This document shows, in pieces, positions 2,319 to 10,494 of a stretch of 27,172 bases of DNA (the stretch's first letter is position 1; every line of letters begins with the position of its first letter). The notes beneath the pieces were generated by a model, which saw nothing but the letters and a program-made list of their open reading frames with translations, was not told where the DNA came from and searched no databases. The DNA is from a virus. The stretch spans positions 1 through 27,172 of IMG/VR virus record IMGVR_UViG_3300013132_000213; one strand, written 5' to 3'. A program made the translations under genes and the position numbers.

Positions 2319-5300
2319 ATGGCTAGTGGAAAAGTTTTTGTATCTCCTGGTGTTTATACATCTGAAAGAGACTTAACATTTGTAACACAAAGTGTTGGTG
2401 TTACTACTTTAGGTATTGTTGGTGAGACCTTACAAGGTCCGGCTTTCGAACCTATTTTTATTACAAATTATGATGAATTCGTTTCAGTTTTTGGAAACGG
2501 AGATAAAGGGACTAGTCCTGTAAAGTTTGTAGAAACAAGCATACCAAAGTATGAGGCTTCATATATTGCAAAGGCCTACTTAGAAGAATCAAATCAACTT
2601 TATGTTACTAGAGTATTAGGTCTTTCAGGTTACGACGCCGGTCCGTCTTGGTCAATTACTACAATTGGTGACTTAGATAATACAACAGTTAGTAGTGTTC
2701 TTGCAGGATATCCGGCATCTTTACAAACACTAACATTTACCGGAACTACAGGTGGTACAACTACGATTGGTTATACATCTTCAATACCATCTTTTATTTC
2801 ATCTCAATTTTATCAAACGTACACAGGAGCTGACCAATCATCTTCGAGTCTTTCTGAAAATTTTGCATCATTCATTTCAAACGAAATAAGTGCATTTTCA
2901 ACATCAGCAAGTACATCAGGAAGAACCGCAGCATTCTTTGGTTCGGTTTCTCAAGCAACCTATGATACAATAACAGGTTCTTCTTATAATCCTAGTGGTG
3001 TAAATAGTGTTGATAATATTTATGAAGTACCTGAAATTATAAACACAGACACAGATTACACCTCAGGTTTAAATGATGTTTGGTATTACAACCAATTTGA
3101 ATCTCCAATATCGGGGGCTTATTCAGGTTATGGTTTTGGTATTGTGGTTTCTGCGATAACCTCAACTGGTGGTGGTTCTTACTCAGGTACCGTTAGATTA
3201 GCAGGAACATCATATACCGCAGACACTCATTCTGATTATGATAATGTGGTAGTTGCGACATTACGTTCTAGAGGAGTTGCGACTTATGCAAGTGATAATG
3301 GTCCTGTTTATAAAGTTAGTGGAACAAGTTCTGTAACAATGATTGGTACTGGAACATACTCAGGAATAACAAAGAACCCATTTGGTAATTTCCAAATATC
3401 GGGAGTAACAACCGATGGCACAAATAGTACGTTTACTTTTACGGTTTCTATGGATTCCGATGTAACAAATTCAATAACCAAAACTTTAGGAATAGATAAT
3501 TTTAATGGAACATTAGATTCTGACGATTTTCCACTTTTTGTTGAGGAGGCGTACCCAACATTCCTAAACGAAGGCTATTTACAACATAAGATTAGAGGCC
3601 TTAACACTACCTTAGTTGCATTACCTGGTTTAAGGAATAGTCCTAACACAAATACCATAGCGTATAGTTTAGAAAAATACCAAACACCTGAAACACCATT
3701 TATTGTTTCCGAGCTTAGGGGTAATAAAGTTTACAAATTGTTTAAATTCATAACAATTTCCGACGGTACTTCAGCTAATTTTAGATTTAAAATAACAATA
3801 GCAAATATTGATTTAGATAATAATACTTTTGATGTTTTAGTAAGAGATTTTAATGATACTGATTCTAATAGAAATGTAATACAATCATTCACAAACTGTT
3901 CTATGGATCCAACATCAAATAGTTATATTGCTAAAAAAGTAGGTACATCAAATGGTGAGTTTCCACTAAAATCTAAATTTGTTATGTTAGAAATGAGTGA
4001 TGAAGCACCAACAGACGCAGTACCTGCAGGTTTTGAAGGTTTGGTACAAAGATCTTATGGTTCAGCAAAACCACCGTTTTTAGACTTTAAAACACTTTAC
4101 TACGGACCAAACGCACTAAGATACAGTCCACCATTCTCTTCTTTTTACGGTGGTGAAATAAGAGCGGGAGCAAGTGGTGATAGAAAAAATAGAGTCTCTC
4201 TTGGGGTATCTTCACAAGTAGGTTTTGATACTGATCAGTTACTTTATAGAGGTAAACAAGCACCTACAAATTTAGCAACCGGTGAAGGTACCGAATGGAA
4301 CTATTTAACAAAAGGGTTCCATATGGATAGTGGAGCGACAGTTGTATTAATTGGAGGTAACGGACCAACTTCAGGTGAATCCAAATTCTTTGTAGGAGAT
4401 GCTAGTTTCCAAACTAACCCAACAAGCACATCAGACCCTTACTATGGTTTAAATGCTAGAAAATTCACATTATTATTTGCTGGTGGATTTGACGGTTGGG
4501 ACATTTATAGAAAATGGAGAACGAATGGTGACGGTTTCGCGTTAGGGGGTACAAACTTCCTTAAAGGTTATAAATCTGACGCAACTTATTCAAACGCAAC
4601 CGGATGGGGGGCATTTAAAAGAATAACAGGACCTAATCAAGAAATATGGGCAAATACCGATTATTACGCATACTTGTGGGGTCAGAAAACATTTGCAAAT
4701 CCAGAGGCGGTAGATATAAACATTTTTACAACACCAGGTATTGACACATATAATAACAGTAATTTGGTTGAGGAAGCAATCGAAATGGTTGAAGCAGATA
4801 GAGCGGATTCAATCTACATATGTACAACACCTGATTATAATTTGTTCACCACCGCAGCAATTAACAATTTAAATGATAATCTAATATTTCCTGAGTCAGC
4901 GGTTGAAAATTTACAAGACACTGGAATTGACTCTAACTATACTGCCACTTATTACCCATGGATTTTGAAAAACGATTCTGAAAATAATGAATCAGTATGG
5001 ATTCCACCAACATCTGAGGTTGTTAAAAATTTAGCTTACACAGATAAGATTTTTAAACCATGGTTCGCATCTGCGGGTTATACAAGAGGTATTGTTAATG
5101 CTATACAAGCGAGAAAAAGGTTAACACAAGACGACAGAGACACACTTTATAAAGGTAGAATTAACCCGATTGCTACATTCACAGATATTGGTACAGTAAT
5201 ATGGGGTAACAAAACTCTACAAATAAGAGAGTCCGCATTAGATAGGATTAATGTTAGACGTTTACTATTACAGGCTAGAAAATTAATTTCAGCAGTAGCG

Positions 5301-5552
5301 GTAAGATTACTTTTTGAACAAAATGATGATAGAGTAAGACAACAGTTCTTAGACTCAGTTAACCCGATACTTGATGAAATAAGAAGAGAAAGAGGTTTAA
5401 TTGACTTTAGAGTTCAAGTATCAAGTGATGCTGAAGATTTAGATTCAAACACAATGACAGGTAAAATATTCTTGAAACCAACAAAAGCGTTAGAATACAT
5501 TGATATTGAGTTTGTGATTACACCGGCAGGAGCATCTTTTGATGATGTTTAA
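2319..5552 (+). CDS. gp18: Tail sheath protein (T4 gp18-like), enlarged
   Basis: The contractile tail sheath subunit, which polymerises around the tube and contracts to drive it through the host envelope. The N-terminus, SPGVYTSERDLTFVTQSVGV (residues 9-28), then LGIVGETLQGPAFEPIFITN (31-50) and the YDEFVSVFG block, is the typical start of myovirus sheath proteins. The C-terminal domain (about residues 885-1077) has the expected WIPPTSEVVKNLAYTD, then AIQARKRLTQ, RINPIATFTDIGTVIWGNKT, RINVRRLLLQARKLI and a final beta strand pair around KALEYIDIEFVITPAGASF. At 1077 residues it is much longer than T4 gp18 (659 residues). The extra length is mainly a Ser/Thr/Gly-rich insertion (about residues 110-400), which probably forms extra surface domains on the outside of the tail. 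No Shine-Dalgarno sequence is present; the ATG follows TTTATAAAAA. A terminator follows the stop. Confidence 0.93.
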   Translation: MASGKVFVSPGVYTSERDLTFVTQSVGVTTLGIVGETLQGPAFEPIFITNYDEFVSVFGNGDKGTSPVKFVETSIPKYEASYIAKAYLEESNQLYVTRVLGLSGYDAGPSWSITTIGDLDNTTVSSVLAGYPASLQTLTFTGTTGGTTTIGYTSSIPSFISSQFYQTYTGADQSSSSLSENFASFISNEISAFSTSASTSGRTAAFFGSVSQATYDTITGSSYNPSGVNSVDNIYEVPEIINTDTDYTSGLNDVWYYNQFESPISGAYSGYGFGIVVSAITSTGGGSYSGTVRLAGTSYTADTHSDYDNVVVATLRSRGVATYASDNGPVYKVSGTSSVTMIGTGTYSGITKNPFGNFQISGVTTDGTNSTFTFTVSMDSDVTNSITKTLGIDNFNGTLDSDDFPLFVEEAYPTFLNEGYLQHKIRGLNTTLVALPGLRNSPNTNTIAYSLEKYQTPETPFIVSELRGNKVYKLFKFITISDGTSANFRFKITIANIDLDNNTFDVLVRDFNDTDSNRNVIQSFTNCSMDPTSNSYIAKKVGTSNGEFPLKSKFVMLEMSDEAPTDAVPAGFEGLVQRSYGSAKPPFLDFKTLYYGPNALRYSPPFSSFYGGEIRAGASGDRKNRVSLGVSSQVGFDTDQLLYRGKQAPTNLATGEGTEWNYLTKGFHMDSGATVVLIGGNGPTSGESKFFVGDASFQTNPTSTSDPYYGLNARKFTLLFAGGFDGWDIYRKWRTNGDGFALGGTNFLKGYKSDATYSNATGWGAFKRITGPNQEIWANTDYYAYLWGQKTFANPEAVDINIFTTPGIDTYNNSNLVEEAIEMVEADRADSIYICTTPDYNLFTTAAINNLNDNLIFPESAVENLQDTGIDSNYTATYYPWILKNDSENNESVWIPPTSEVVKNLAYTDKIFKPWFASAGYTRGIVNAIQARKRLTQDDRDTLYKGRINPIATFTDIGTVIWGNKTLQIRESALDRINVRRLLLQARKLISAVAVRLLFEQNDDRVRQQFLDSVNPILDEIRRERGLIDFRVQVSSDAEDLDSNTMTGKIFLKPTKALEYIDIEFVITPAGASFDDV

Positions 5553-5614: not shown

Positions 5615-5755
5615 ATGAAAATTCAAAAAAAACTTGTTAAAGAGAGTATTGGGTTAGAAACTCAAAACAAAAAAAGTTTTTCAGAAAAAAAACAAAATAT
5701 TGTGATAACTGAAAAACAACTTGAAAAACTTTTAGAAAAATTAAATAAGAAATGA
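5615..5755 (+). CDS. Small Lys-rich protein coupled to the HAD-like gene
   Basis: A 46-residue frame beginning MKIQKKLVKESIGLETQNKK and ending in a Leu/Lys/Glu amphipathic helix (ITEKQLEKLLEKLNKK). Its TGA overlaps the ATG of the next gene in the arrangement ATGA, a classical translational-coupling overlap, and it has its own upstream promoter-like element; together these make it a real gene rather than a chance frame. I do not recognise the family. The C-terminal helix could form a coiled coil or bind a partner. The phrase ITEKQ recurs in the small protein encoded at 24228. The N-terminus loosely resembles short capsid-targeting peptides of T4 internal proteins, but without a clean match to the usual cleavage motif. 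Confidence 0.7.
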   Translation: MKIQKKLVKESIGLETQNKKSFSEKKQNIVITEKQLEKLLEKLNKK

Positions 5756-6777
5756 ATTTTAAAAAACACATAAAAGAACAGGTTTTTAAAAATAAAATTA
5801 GAAACCAAATTTATAAATACGCAATTTCTGAAGGTATATATAATGTTGGGTCTGAAGAATCTGAAGATTTAAGACCTGATTTAAAATATTACGCATTTGA
5901 CTGGGACGATAATTTAATGTACATGCCAACAAAAATAATGGTAATGACTGAAAATGATGATGAAATAGGTATGTCAACCGAAGATTTTGCGGAACATAGA
6001 CATCAAATAGGTATTGAAGACTTTAAATATAAGGGGTCTACAATTGTTGGGTACTCACCCGACCCATTTATTTATTTTAAAGAGGCGGGTGAAGATAGAT
6101 TTATTATTGATTCAATGATTGCTCCTGTTGGACCTGCATGGAATGATTTTGTGGAGTGTTTAAATGGTGGATCACTTTTTGCGATTATTACAGCAAGAGG
6201 ACATAGCCCACAAACACTAAGAAAGGCTATCTTTAATTTAATTGCAAAAAATCATAACGGTATAAATAAAAATGAGATGATAAAAAATCTTAAAATATAC
6301 CACGAAATGGTTTCTAAACCAAAAAGTTTAAAAGAAGATATAGATATAAAAAAATTTGAGGCGAATTTTAATGATAGTGATTTGGTTATTGATTATTTAG
6401 ACAGATGTTTAATGTCTCCCGTAACATACGGTCAAGGAAGTGCGGCCAACCCAGAAGAAGGTAAAAAAGTCGCTTTAAGAAAGTTTATTAATGATTGTAG
6501 ACAATCGGCAAAAGAGATCATTCAGTCTTTATTAGAAAAAAACCCAAATTTAAAATTAAAGGATTTGATCCCAACTTTTAAAATGGACGTTGCATTTCTT
6601 GAGGTTATGGACGATATAAATATAGATGATTTTATCACACAAAATGTTAAGATAGGATTTTCAGATGACGATTTGAAAAATGCAGAAGCTCAAAGAGATA
6701 TGTTAAGTCAAGAATATCCAAATGAACCAATTAATGTATACTATACTAAAGGAGGAGAAAAAAGAAAATTTAATTAA
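5752..6777 (+). CDS. HAD-superfamily phosphatase-like protein in the tail gene cluster
   Basis: A 341-residue protein with the hallmarks of the haloacid dehalogenase fold. Motif I is YAFDWDDNL (residues 47-55; Asp50 nucleophile and Asp52 acid/base). Motif II is FAIITARGH (143-151; Thr147). A candidate motif IV is KIGFSDDD (300-307), which would bind Mg2+. The motif III lysine is not certain; Lys241 is one possibility. Enzymes with this set remove phosphate from small molecules, nucleic acid ends or proteins. The substrate cannot be told from sequence. The first 30 residues (MNFKKHIKEQVFKNKIRNQI...) are a basic helical extension outside the HAD domain. The gene overlaps the stop of the small gene before it by four bases and lies between the sheath and tube genes, an unusual place for an enzyme. 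It could be a virion component or a tail-assembly factor. Confidence 0.75.
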   Translation: MNFKKHIKEQVFKNKIRNQIYKYAISEGIYNVGSEESEDLRPDLKYYAFDWDDNLMYMPTKIMVMTENDDEIGMSTEDFAEHRHQIGIEDFKYKGSTIVGYSPDPFIYFKEAGEDRFIIDSMIAPVGPAWNDFVECLNGGSLFAIITARGHSPQTLRKAIFNLIAKNHNGINKNEMIKNLKIYHEMVSKPKSLKEDIDIKKFEANFNDSDLVIDYLDRCLMSPVTYGQGSAANPEEGKKVALRKFINDCRQSAKEIIQSLLEKNPNLKLKDLIPTFKMDVAFLEVMDDINIDDFITQNVKIGFSDDDLKNAEAQRDMLSQEYPNEPINVYYTKGGEKRKFN

Positions 6778-6884: not shown

Positions 6885-7373
6885 ATGGCTGATTTATTAA
6901 TGAAAATGCCCCTAACGTATGAACCTAAAAAGAAAAACAGGTTTATTTTATCGTTTCCATCTGATTTAGGTATCAACTCTTGGTATGTAACAAGTACCTC
7001 AAGACCAAAAATAAAAATTGGTGAAGTTGAGATACCTTTTTTAAACACATCAACATATGTTGCTGGAAGATTCAATTGGGAATCAATGGATGTAACTTTT
7101 TTAGACCCTATTGGTCCTTCCGCCGCACAAGCACTTATGGAGTGGGTTCGTTTACATGCTGAATCAATAACAGGTCGTATGGGATATGCTGCTGGTTATA
7201 AAAGAGACCTTACGTTAGAAATGTTAGACCCAACAGGGGTTGCTGTTGAAAAGTGGATCCTACAAGGAACTTTTTTAACTGGTGTTGATATGGACTCTCT
7301 TGATTATAGTGATGAAAAGATTGTAACAGTAAAGGCAACTTTAAGACCCGATAGATGTATATTAGTTTACTAA
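6885..7373 (+). CDS. gp19: Tail tube protein (T4 gp19-like)
   Basis: A 162-residue protein, nearly the same length as T4 gp19 (163 residues), located downstream of the sheath gene as in T4. It begins MADLLMKMPLTYEPKKKNRF and contains features of the tube family: a beta strand near the start that carries FILSFPS, the SRPKIKIGEVEIPFLNTSTY stretch (about residues 43-62), WESMDVTFLDPIGPSAAQAL (about 67-86) and a C-terminal YSDEKIVTVKATLRPDRCIL. These form the beta-barrel ring that stacks into the inner tube. The start at 6885 follows A-rich leader sequence without a Shine-Dalgarno site. It is monocistronic, with its own upstream palindromic element and a strong terminator downstream, which suits a protein needed in high copy. 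Confidence in the family is high. Confidence 0.9.
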   Translation: MADLLMKMPLTYEPKKKNRFILSFPSDLGINSWYVTSTSRPKIKIGEVEIPFLNTSTYVAGRFNWESMDVTFLDPIGPSAAQALMEWVRLHAESITGRMGYAAGYKRDLTLEMLDPTGVAVEKWILQGTFLTGVDMDSLDYSDEKIVTVKATLRPDRCILVY

Positions 7374-7470: not shown

Positions 7471-8223
7471 ATGGAAAATTTAGCAAATTATGGACAAATG
7501 GATTTTAACTTACCACACGATGTAATTAAATTACCAAGTGGAGGTAAATTTTACAGAAATAAAAAAGAATCACTTAAAGTAGGTTATTTAACTGCTGAAG
7601 ATGAAAATATCTTAATGTCTCCAAATTTGGGTTATGATGGTTTGATAACAAGATTATTGAGACAAAAAATTTACGAACCAAATTTTGACATTAATGAACT
7701 AATAGATGCCGATGTACAGGCTATTTTAGTATTTCTAAGAAACACATCTTTTGGGCCTGAATACAATTTTACATTAGTTGATCCATTAACTGGAAAACCA
7801 TTCGAAGGATCAATTGTTTTAGACGCCGTTAATTACGTAAAACCTAAACATGAACCAAATGAAAGGGGTCATTTTACAACAACCTTACCAAAAACCGATC
7901 ACAAAGTAACTGTTAAGATATTAAATATGGGGGAACAAAGAGAGTTAGAAAAAATAATTTCTAGTTACCCTAAAGGAATGGTTGCTCCTGTAGTAACAAA
8001 AAAACTTGAAAAACAAATCATATCTGTTGACGACAATGACAGTAGAGATTTTATAAATAAAATGATTCCACAATTACCAATTGCAGACTCAAAACACATA
8101 AGAAATTTTTTATCTGAGTGTGAACCAAAAGTTGATTTAATAAGAGAAATTGAAGCCCCGTCTGGAGAAAAGGTAACATTGAATGTTGCTTTTGGGGCTG
8201 AATTTTTTCGTCCTTTCTTCTGA
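7471..8223 (+). CDS. T4 gp26-like tail/baseplate assembly protein
   Basis: A 250-residue protein matching the pattern of the T4 gp26-type baseplate family: an opening IKLPSGGKFYRNKKES (about residues 19-34; the usual form is 'LPSkGkfY'), then VGYLTAEDENILMSPN, a helical segment with NELIDADVQAILVFLRNTSFG (about 75-95), and an acidic middle. The end is NVAFGAEFFRPFF, and these proteins typically finish with an 'FFxP' motif. In T4, gene 26 lies in the baseplate hub cluster and is followed by gene 51. Here the gene lies directly before a tape-measure candidate, the position held by tail assembly chaperones in other tailed phages. That chaperone role, binding the tape measure before tube polymerisation, is an inference. 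A second frame overlaps its end (8183-8362). No Shine-Dalgarno site is present; the ATG follows AAAAAAAGAA. Confidence 0.75.
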   Translation: MENLANYGQMDFNLPHDVIKLPSGGKFYRNKKESLKVGYLTAEDENILMSPNLGYDGLITRLLRQKIYEPNFDINELIDADVQAILVFLRNTSFGPEYNFTLVDPLTGKPFEGSIVLDAVNYVKPKHEPNERGHFTTTLPKTDHKVTVKILNMGEQRELEKIISSYPKGMVAPVVTKKLEKQIISVDDNDSRDFINKMIPQLPIADSKHIRNFLSECEPKVDLIREIEAPSGEKVTLNVAFGAEFFRPFF

Positions 8224-8362
8224 GTATCAAAAAAATTTATTAGACGAAATATTTTACTTAGTAAAATATGCTAACTTTTCTTATAAAGATTTACTTTGTA
8301 TGCCGACATACGAAAGAAAATACTTCATAGATAAACTAATAAAAGAATATCAAAAAAAATAA
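8183..8362 (+). CDS. Overlapping gp51-like small protein, possible +1 frameshift extension of the gp26-like gene
   Basis: In the +1 frame relative to the gp26-like gene a frame runs from an ATG at 8183 to TAA at 8360-8362 (59 residues). The part beyond the upstream stop reads SSEYQKNLLDEIFYLVKYA then NFSYKDLLCMPTYERKYFID, a compact helical pattern with 'mP..eR..fi..L' like the small proteins that follow gp26 (gp51) or extend tail assembly chaperones. A TGA at 8180-8182 closes the frame upstream, so translation must either initiate at the ATG (an AAAAGG lies nine bases before it) or shift frame within 8183-8220. A shift at CCT TTC (8212-8217) would join FFRP directly to SSEYQKNLL, making a natural-looking fusion, while the residues encoded from the ATG to that point (MLLLGLNFFVL) look non-native. 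Both mechanisms are inferences. Confidence 0.7.
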   Translation: MLLLGLNFFVLSSEYQKNLLDEIFYLVKYANFSYKDLLCMPTYERKYFIDKLIKEYQKK

Positions 8363-8391: not shown

Positions 8392-10494
8392 ATGATGTTT
8401 CTTTTATCGGCTAAATCAACCGGGGCTTATACTGATAACGTTGGGGAAACCGAAGGCGTATCAAGTTTTAAAACTAATTTAAAATCAGCGTTAGAGGACT
8501 CTTTAAATTATAATAGATACCAAACCTTTTTTGTTAAATTAGAAGAGGGTGCTCAACAATTTTCAAGAACTTTTGCCCAAGGAGCAACTGATTTTGGTAC
8601 AGTGATGGAAGAACAGATTTTTGATGTAATGAAAGATTTGCAAGATTTAAATGTCGAAATGAAGGATGTTACCGAAATCATGAGCGAATTTGCGGGTGAA
8701 ACAGGTAGAGTACCTACTTTACAAAAAGAAATGTTAGAAAATACAATTGCGCTCTCAACAGTAACTGGAATTGCGGCTAAAGAATTAGCAAAATACACTG
8801 CCCAATTTGCACAGATTGGTATGGGACAACAACAAGCCCAAATTTATTTGACAAAAATGTACAAAACAGCCCAAGGATTTGGTTTGAACGCATCTAAACT
8901 AACCGCTGAAGTAATGTCACACATTAATAAAGCGAATACATATCAATTTAAAGGAGGGGTTCAAGGACTAACAAACATGGTTGCAAGAGCACAACAATTG
9001 GGTATTAAGTTTGAAGAAATAATGAAAACCGCAGAAAAGGCTTTAGATCCTGATAAAGCGATTGAAATGGCCTCGGGTATGCAAATGTTAGGTGGTAATG
9101 TTGGTGCACTTGGAGATCCATTTAAACTTTTATATATGGCTCAAAACGATGTTGAGGGATTACAAAAAGAATTTATAAAAGTCGCGGCATCATCTGCTGA
9201 ATTTAATTCTGAAACCGGTCAGTTTAAAATTGGTACACAACAAATGTACAGATTAAAACAAATGGCAGATGAATTGGGTATGGAATACAATGAATTGGCT
9301 AAATCCGCAATACGAGCAGCAAAAGAACAAAAAATAATGTCTGAAGTTGGATTTGCTAATGGTTTAAAAGAGGAAGATAAACAACTTTTGGCTTCAATGG
9401 CTGAATTAAAAGACGGAGTATATAAAGTACAATTACCAGGAACCGAAAATTGGGAAAAATTAAGTCAAATTCAGGATAACCAACTACAAAGTTTTAGAGA
9501 GGCACAGGCGGAGGCAAATAAAACTGATAGTGAAAAATTAACAAAGATAGACGGAACCTTAAATAATATGATGAATAACAACATTGCGGATGCAAGAGCC
9601 CAATTATCTTCATCTGAAAAGGCTGCCGCAGAATTACAAAAAATGGCAAATTCAATAATATTTAGTCGGGGATACGATGCGGGTAAAGATTTTGCTGATG
9701 AAAAATATTATGATAAAACAAGAATAGATATGGTAGGTACAATGACAAGTACAGTTATCGCCGAAGGGGGTAAAATATTTACTGCAATTGCAAAACACGT
9801 CGAATCAATGAACACAGCAATGGTTGCCTATAGTGACCCAGAATTTAAAAAAGACTTAAAAAATATTATTGATACAATGACAACTACATCAATGCAAATT
9901 CACAACGTTTTTAGTAATTTGAAAACTCAGATAACAGGTACGGACAAAGACGATCTTTACGTACCATCAAATTTTAAAGGAGGAACAATACTTAGTGGTA
10001 GTTTTGGGCAATTTACACTTAACGCAAAAGATGACTTTTTAGCTGCGCCAGGAATTGATGAATATATTAGTGATGCTCAAGGTGCATTTTCTATACTTAA
10101 TAAAATTTCAGAAGATGAAAATATTAGAAAAATGTCACCAATTATTGAAAATATAATAAACCCATTATCTGAAAAAAACAAAGAAGAAAACCCTGAATTA
10201 ATAACAACTGAATCACCAAAGATAATAAGTACACTTCAAGATTTATTAACAAGAAATATGAGTTCAGAAGAAATGTCAAAAAGTATCAACATCACAAATA
10301 CTACAACAAATGAAGTTAAAGGTGACGTAGGAGTTAATGGTGAGGTAACAATAAAAGTAGACGGTATAAGTGGTAATTTATCAACAATATTAGAATCTGA
10401 CCCTAACTTTCAAAGAATGTTTAAAGAAAATGTAATGAATATTGTTAATGAAAGATTAAGTAAATCATATGGTGAAAAATTAGGTAACCTGTAA
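8392..10494 (+). CDS. Putative tape measure / baseplate hub protein (T4 gp29-like role)
   Basis: A 700-residue, largely alpha-helical protein placed directly after the gp26/gp51-like pair and before the baseplate genes, the normal position of the tape measure protein that sets tail length. Residues about 60-330 are helix-rich with many Ala, Gln and Met residues (ELAKYTAQFAQIGMGQQQAQ, VQGLTNMVARAQQLGIKFEE). The last 70 residues form a distinct beta-containing tail, NEVKGDVGVNGEVTIKVDGI and then NFQRMFKENVMNIVNERLSK, as seen at the ends of many tape measures. I see no clear transmembrane segment, although many tape measures have one. With the usual rule of about 0.15 nm per residue, 700 residues would span roughly 100 nm. 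Two adjacent ATG codons (8392 and 8395) compete as starts and there is no Shine-Dalgarno site. The call rests on context and composition more than on a diagnostic motif. Confidence 0.65.
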   Translation: MMFLLSAKSTGAYTDNVGETEGVSSFKTNLKSALEDSLNYNRYQTFFVKLEEGAQQFSRTFAQGATDFGTVMEEQIFDVMKDLQDLNVEMKDVTEIMSEFAGETGRVPTLQKEMLENTIALSTVTGIAAKELAKYTAQFAQIGMGQQQAQIYLTKMYKTAQGFGLNASKLTAEVMSHINKANTYQFKGGVQGLTNMVARAQQLGIKFEEIMKTAEKALDPDKAIEMASGMQMLGGNVGALGDPFKLLYMAQNDVEGLQKEFIKVAASSAEFNSETGQFKIGTQQMYRLKQMADELGMEYNELAKSAIRAAKEQKIMSEVGFANGLKEEDKQLLASMAELKDGVYKVQLPGTENWEKLSQIQDNQLQSFREAQAEANKTDSEKLTKIDGTLNNMMNNNIADARAQLSSSEKAAAELQKMANSIIFSRGYDAGKDFADEKYYDKTRIDMVGTMTSTVIAEGGKIFTAIAKHVESMNTAMVAYSDPEFKKDLKNIIDTMTTTSMQIHNVFSNLKTQITGTDKDDLYVPSNFKGGTILSGSFGQFTLNAKDDFLAAPGIDEYISDAQGAFSILNKISEDENIRKMSPIIENIINPLSEKNKEENPELITTESPKIISTLQDLLTRNMSSEEMSKSINITNTTTNEVKGDVGVNGEVTIKVDGISGNLSTILESDPNFQRMFKENVMNIVNERLSKSYGEKLGNL

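Follow-up and report, generated by a model that had tools for sequence, protein, structure and literature searches.

The window analysed here is the whole of the IMG/VR viral record IMGVR_UViG_3300013132_000213, complete in 27,172 nucleotides. Its tail genes include a tail tube gene, a gp26-like gene and a probable tape measure gene, in that order, with a tail sheath gene and a CDS of unknown family further upstream (Table 1). The sheath protein has roughly double the length of the sheath profile phrog_23 (496), the match to which is spread across residues 7-1074, implying large insertions in the sheath. Profile matches to the product of the downstream neighbour are weak, as with phrog_14441 (E = 0.034); the equivalent position is annotated as a tape measure in phages immuto and LIS04.

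The gp26-like protein matches PF12322 (T4_baseplate) across residues 20-235, with an E value of 5.6e-6 and a score of 26.6 bits that exceeds the curated cut-off of 24.5, and also phrog_150 (baseplate hub; E = 3.6e-10), matches that place the predicted product within the T4 gp26 family. The 3' end of the gene reads GAA TTT TTT CGT CCT TTC TTC TGA. In the +1 frame a TGA occupies 8180-8182 and is followed at 8183 by an ATG, from which the frame is open through to a TAA at 8360-8362; the coordinates that an earlier note, made from this sequence, gave for this ATG and the TGA preceding it, and for the end at 8362, are correct on re-check.

Table 1. Features in and around the gp26-like gene of the window, and annotated small genes probably lying within the corresponding extension of relatives
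Feature	Position	Strand	Product or sequence	Remarks
Tail sheath	2319-5552		1077 aa	
Protein of unknown family	5752-6777		341 aa	Between sheath and tube; no significant Pfam match
Tail tube protein	6885-7373	+		Upstream neighbour; phrog_4542, E = 3.5e-25
gp26-like gene, frame 0	7471-8223	+	Short product, 250 aa, ending ...AEFFRPFF*	
Hairpin as a whole	8155-8198	+		Ends 8 nt 5' of the P-site UUU
Stem 1, 5' arm	8155-8160	+	GCCCCG	Pairs with 8193-8198
Bulge	8161-8169	+	TCTGGAGAA (9 nt)	Synonymous conservation
Stem 2, 5' arm	8170-8174	+	AAGGT	RNAalifold and pair counts; pairs with 8188-8192
Stem 2, 3' arm	8188-8192	+	GCTTT	RNAalifold and pair counts
Stem 1, 3' arm	8193-8198	+	TGGGGC	Covariation
Proposed +1 slip site	8206-8211	+	UUU_CGU	UUU 104/104; CGN 104/104
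+1-frame extension	8210-8362	+	VLSSEYQKNLLDEIFYLVKYANFSYKDLLCMPTYERKYFIDKLIKEYQKK (50 aa), then TAA	Long product, 296 aa
Frame-0 stop	8221-8223	+	TGA	
Probable tape measure	8392-10494	+	700 aa	Downstream neighbour; G/GT-type position
GAP32_242	L205:2298-2474			Annotated small gene in extension
KVP40.0327	L215:2019-2186			Annotated small gene in extension
Syn19_013	L214:1965-2102			Annotated small gene in extension
SmphiM12_164	L216:1914-2075			Annotated small gene in extension

A protein homology search with the frame-0 protein retrieved 69 loci, 65 of them complete. In all 65 complete loci frame 0 ends in EFFRPFF or a near variant, and all 65 have a +1 extension at the same place, a domain with the pattern LSS.Y....LDE.YYL.K..NFSY.DLL.MP.YERKYFI.KL. 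Scanning 2.9 million viral contigs with a codon-degenerate EFFRPFF* pattern gave at least 120 matches; each of the 120 listed has gp26-like sequence upstream and the same +1 extension, which in two is cut off by the end of the contig. In a representative set of 104 non-redundant family members (less than 90% amino acid identity), the extension, approximately 50 aa long and overlapping with the 3' end of the gene, is kept without exception. This conservation is far beyond chance, and so many independent contigs share the arrangement that an isolated sequencing error can be excluded. The suggestion in the earlier note that the extension resembles a conserved small helical protein holds both in its retention by all relatives and in an AF2 model of the fused relative L006 (61% identical, with CGG at the site; mean pLDDT 82.6), in which it forms three helices. 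In BFVD, the model matches baseplate hub proteins of the gp26 type; a Foldseek search of the fused model against the PDB gave nothing significant, and no sequence relatives of the fused family or of T4 gp51 were found in the PDB.

The start of the open +1 frame does not share this conservation. An ATG is found at the position equivalent to 8183 in 28 of the 104 representatives and anywhere before the shift site in 35, nine have no ATG, GTG or TTG in the +1 frame before the site, and loci L006-L011 have a +1 stop directly 5' of the conserved part. Alignment with the relatives thus uncovers no conserved, well-separated start for a small gene, and separate initiation is therefore unlikely. The combination of a conserved extension with no conserved start codon argues strongly for a programmed +1 ribosomal frameshift on the gp26-like gene, the possibility that the earlier note had raised.

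At the end of frame 0, the codons of the 104 representatives are TTT (102), TTT (104), CGN (104), CCT (104) and TTC (103). Arginine is encoded in the same genes by AGA or AGG in 85% of cases and by CGN in 15%, with CGG at 1.3% and CGC at 0.3%, whereas CGG (43) and CGC (27) together make up 70 of the 104 codons at the site, a contrast which shared ancestry inflates but which is clear in its direction. UUC was not seen at the slip codon of any of the 104 representatives, and the version of the same peptide with AGR had no matches in the scan of 2.9 million contigs. An in-frame UUU_CGN is found at a single place in the ten large genes that the window encodes, 8206-8211, where the putative site is followed by an open +1 frame leading to the extension. 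CGN varies freely at its wobble base, allowing the next +1 residue to be A, D, G or V, and CCT and TTC are fixed, as would be expected were translation to run in both frames after UUU; part of the constraint on CGN could nevertheless act on the protein, since the choice of CGN alters the +1 residue. Slippage is most likely to take place at UUU_CGU, joining the frames as ...AEFF-V-LSSEY.

The junction proposed in the earlier note, at CCT_TTC (8212-8217), would instead have tRNA-Pro slip from CCU to CUU, with a product reading ...EFFRP-SSEY. Both codons are almost invariant, and in Listeria phages +1 slippage does occur at proline codons (PMC5009743). This placement is nonetheless improbable: it leaves the invariant UUU and CGN unexplained, the re-pairing of CCU to CUU is poorer, and there is no CCU in phages GXN1 (CGT CCC), SP-15 (CAC GCC) or RM378 (TGG AAT). 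The invariance of CCT and TTC instead reflects their dual coding, as they are read within CTT TCT TCT in the +1 frame. A shift driven by the stop codon was also considered and rejected. Frame 0 ends with TCA GTA TAA in loci L030-L034 and with TTC TAT TGA in L064, and reads FFG in L219, L220 and L228; the loci in which frame 0 continues imply that the shift does not depend on the stop codon. It is not conserved at the site, and the A-site codon, CGN, is a sense codon.

There is very little chance that the extension is instead a separate overlapping gene, initiated at ATG 8183 (or at a GTG or TTG) and coupled to the translation of gp26. The window does have an AAGG stretch upstream of this ATG, but the start is not conserved across the representatives, as detailed above, the invariant UUU_CGN would have no explanation, and a fused protein is favoured by T4 gp51 and by the cross-lineage alignment described below. 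Similarly slight is the probability that the ribosome slips by -2 on UUUUUU, a shift of the kind seen in phage Mu, which would enter the same reading frame with one extra phenylalanine. Such a run permits tRNA-Phe to re-pair at -2; however, the TTC TTT found in L070, L096, L134, L178 and GXN1 spoils this re-pairing and leaves that of UUU to UUC at +1 unaffected, and selection for CGN fits a +1 shift with a slow A-site codon. Transcriptional slippage at the T6 run (8203-8208), making some mRNAs one base shorter and yielding the same product, can be set aside as extremely unlikely, given that the run is short, reads TTCTTT in several relatives and TTTCTTTGG in immuto, and offers no explanation for CGN.

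Upstream of the UUU_CGU site is a hairpin with two stems separated by a bulge on the 5' side, which is likely to act as a stimulator of the shift. Before the shift, where codon choice does not have to serve a second frame, synonymous positions are constrained at GCC CC., TC. GGA and GGG: the glycine codon in the bulge, part of a Shine-Dalgarno-like GGAGAA, is GGA in 102 of 104 representatives, and that in the 3' arm of stem 1 is GGG in 101 of 104, against an expected 11%. Stem 1 has undergone compensatory changes (C-G to A-U in two lineages, U-A and G-C), and stem 2 covaries both between G-C and A-U and between G-C and C-G. In three lineages, a scan aimed at loci without GGG identified partners that compensate, GCA..GGT in two of them and TGTCC..GGACC in the third; uncompensated changes in stem 1 were found in L220/L221/L235, L238 and L060. 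Over 65 sequences, 92.2% of cells were paired, compared with 87.2 after shuffling, and changes on both sides affected 37 cells, compared with 11.3; none of 500 shuffles had as high a covariation score, and slid controls scored far lower. The hairpin is unable to form fully while the P site is on UUU, and it may push the ribosome forward. Two further roles for these nucleotides were rejected. The GGGG covaries as part of a stem, becoming GGUG or GGAC, hence a Shine-Dalgarno function was dismissed because the covariation indicates pairing. A pseudoknot between the GGAGAA of the bulge and the downstream UUCUUC is argued against by GGUGAA variants that have no compensation.

The profile of the window family's extension matches the extensions of cultured relatives. 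A +1 arrangement is present in Flavobacterium phage immuto (CUU_UGG), Microcystis phage Mel-JY01 (UUU_UGG), Streptococcus phage GXN1 (UUU_CGU), Bacillus phage SP-15 (UUU_CAC), Listeria phage LIS04 (UUU_AGU) and Rhodothermus phage RM378 (UUU_UGG), as well as in the uncultured 484-kb phage LR756508 (L193; UUU_CUA). CGN is absent at the site in LIS04 and in the 484-kb phage, and in none of the cultured relatives is the arrangement annotated as a frameshift. The extension is in the -1 frame in the jumbo phages PBECO4, CBB, GAP32, BF, RaK2, Munch, XaC1, XacN1, RAS14, Vibrio 2.275, Atu_ph07, Phosso, PA5oct and SCTP-2, and in the T4-superfamily phages Syn19, C48C1, KVP40, phiM12, Mendera and AS-szw, the last being a large Aeromonas phage of the Straboviridae whose copy of the extension is unannotated. 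These -1 phages have a classical heptamer, U_UUU_UUC or U_UUU_UUU, in the same place as the +1 site. Vibrio phage K493 (L218, 1048-2004) has a gp26-like gene ending CTT TTC AAG TAA, with no U6 run, followed by a -1-frame extension.

By profile comparison, the fused products of the +1 and -1 lineages align from end to end (97.6%, E = 4e-12). It also links the extensions, although some pairs, those of jumbo phages and cyanophages for instance, had no direct match to one another. A quick tree requires two changes in the direction of the shift. Two very large uncultured phages have opposite directions, the 595-kb LR756511 (L212) being -1, with GGT TTT TTC at its site, and the 484-kb LR756508 being +1, near TTT CTA. 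The four annotated small genes listed in Table 1 probably belong to frameshift extensions and are not genes in their own right.

In T4, gp26 and gp51 both match PF12322 (E = 8.8e-64 and 3.9e-52, respectively) and phrog_150, covering positions 14-235 and 13-280 of its 282. T4 gp26 ends in EFFELL and a stop, with no extension in any frame. T4 gp51 additionally matches phrog_634, a family of small -1-frame ORFs from KVP40, Syn19 and phiM12, and is the only match among 106 T4 ORFs to an extension profile built without T4 (E = 8e-5). Against the same 106 ORFs, the fused profile matches gp26 (E = 4e-15), gp51 (E = 5.5e-4) and nothing else. The fused cyanophage and KVP40 set matches T4 gp51 (97.9%, E = 6e-13), and a direct hhalign comparison of the window family with T4 gp51 alone was not significant (0.5%); on these comparisons, the homology between the window family and gp51 runs through intermediates. 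Genes 26 and 51 of T4 are adjacent and on opposite strands, and in the quick tree their products are sisters inside the -1 group, although the two branches are long and their joining insecure. Judged by their sequences, gp26 and gp51 are PF12322 paralogues, gp26 having the short form and gp51 a long form with the extension in frame. As gp51 comprises a gp26-like domain and the extension, it would correspond to the long product, and T4, in which gp26 has no extension, would have divided the two forms between separate genes. The earlier note was thus right to describe 26 and 51 as separate genes in T4; where it called the small extension gp51-like, gp51 proves to be a full gp26 paralogue carrying it in frame.

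We consider it very probable that the gp26-like gene of this large and mostly uncultured group of phages with contractile tails has two products, the longer arising through a +1 slip at UUU_CGU, and that the same pair comes from a -1 slip in jumbo phages, cyanophages, KVP40 and the Aeromonas phage, and from paralogous genes in T4. We infer that most ribosomes would terminate at the TGA at 8221, giving the short gp26- or G-like form, and that a minority would slip to give the GT-like form with its conserved helical end. The P-site tRNA-Phe would re-pair from UUU (8206-8208) to UUC (8207-8209) with the slow, rare CGU waiting in the A site, and the hairpin would be able to refold just behind the ribosome, aiding the slip. 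By analogy with lambda gpG and gpGT, the short form would coat the tape measure protein, the long form would recruit tube subunits, and neither would stay in the virion. Both T4 proteins are described as chaperones of hub assembly (PMC3004832), gp26 being known also as a hub subunit and gp51 as the hub assembly catalyst, and the database record of Acinetobacter phage Konradin labels its gp51 homologue 'tape measure protein assembly chaperone'. Together with the homology, the position between tube and tape measure genes and the match to a gp26-type hub fold, these listings suggest that a G/GT-like chaperone role is the most likely one for the pair.

More broadly, it is probable that the T4 superfamily has a G/GT system of its own, consisting of a PF12322 chaperone with one ancestral poly-U site at which ribosomes shift either +1 or -1, and which in T4 has been duplicated. 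The +1 shift at UUU_C would operate through a rare CGN and a forward-pushing hairpin, and the -1 shift at U_UUU_UUY; gene duplication in T4 would have replaced the frameshift, the two forms becoming gp26 and gp51. The direction of shifting appears to change at a single homologous site, the window family having a putative upstream stimulator supported by covariation, and many small-gene entries in the databases are probably not independent genes. Neither a frameshift nor a paralogy of gp26/gp51 was found to have been described before in the open-licence papers searched.

The motif itself is known from influenza A PA-X and the amalgaviruses, in which UUU in the P site re-pairs to UUC with CGN, where N is any base, in the A site; changing UUU_CGU to UUC_AGA abolishes PA-X shifting (PMC3498833, PMC5052127). 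The window family likewise has UUU able to re-pair to UUC and a CGN codon with all four bases at N, but in a DNA phage, on bacterial ribosomes and with a covarying hairpin upstream. No cellular or phage example of a UUU_CGN frameshift was found in the literature searched; judged by that literature, the motif would here be seen in a bacterial setting for the first time. Programmed +1 frameshifts are known in the tail genes of Listeria phage PSA and of SPP1 (PMC5009743, PMC3498833), that of PSA being at CCC_UGA on the major tail protein, unlike the UUU_CGN of the window, and a +1 case in the archaeal myovirus HSTV-2 is inferred only (PMC3498833); for none of the three has a UUU_CGN site with a hairpin before it been described.

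As in lambda gpG/gpGT (PMC5009743), a gene lying between those for the tail tube and the tape measure would have short and longer forms, with a conserved putative frameshift near its end; unlike in lambda, the shift in the window would be +1 rather than -1, and the gene is a T4 gp26 homologue (PF12322). T4 itself is named in a review as the exception to the conserved G-T frameshift (PMC5009743), whereas its family would here have its own version, and T4 would lack the frameshift because its short and long forms are made by gp26 and gp51. A puzzle from 2010 can be explained in the same way: cyanophage gp51 was found to have around 20% of the T4 length, without the first ~200 aa (Sullivan et al. 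2010, PMC3037559), and vibriophage gp51 likewise to be without the first ~200 residues (PMC3037559), which would be because these small ORFs are the -1-frame tail of gp26, as in Syn19, KVP40 and phiM12. The absence of gp51 from Aeh1 alone (PMC3037559) would also follow from a frameshift, the Aeromonas phage examined here being AS-szw. The window resembles T4 in its short form, which matches gp26, and in its predicted long form, which matches gp51 in its domain and extension; it would differ from T4 in encoding both through one frameshifted gene, where T4 has a neighbouring pair of genes on opposite strands.
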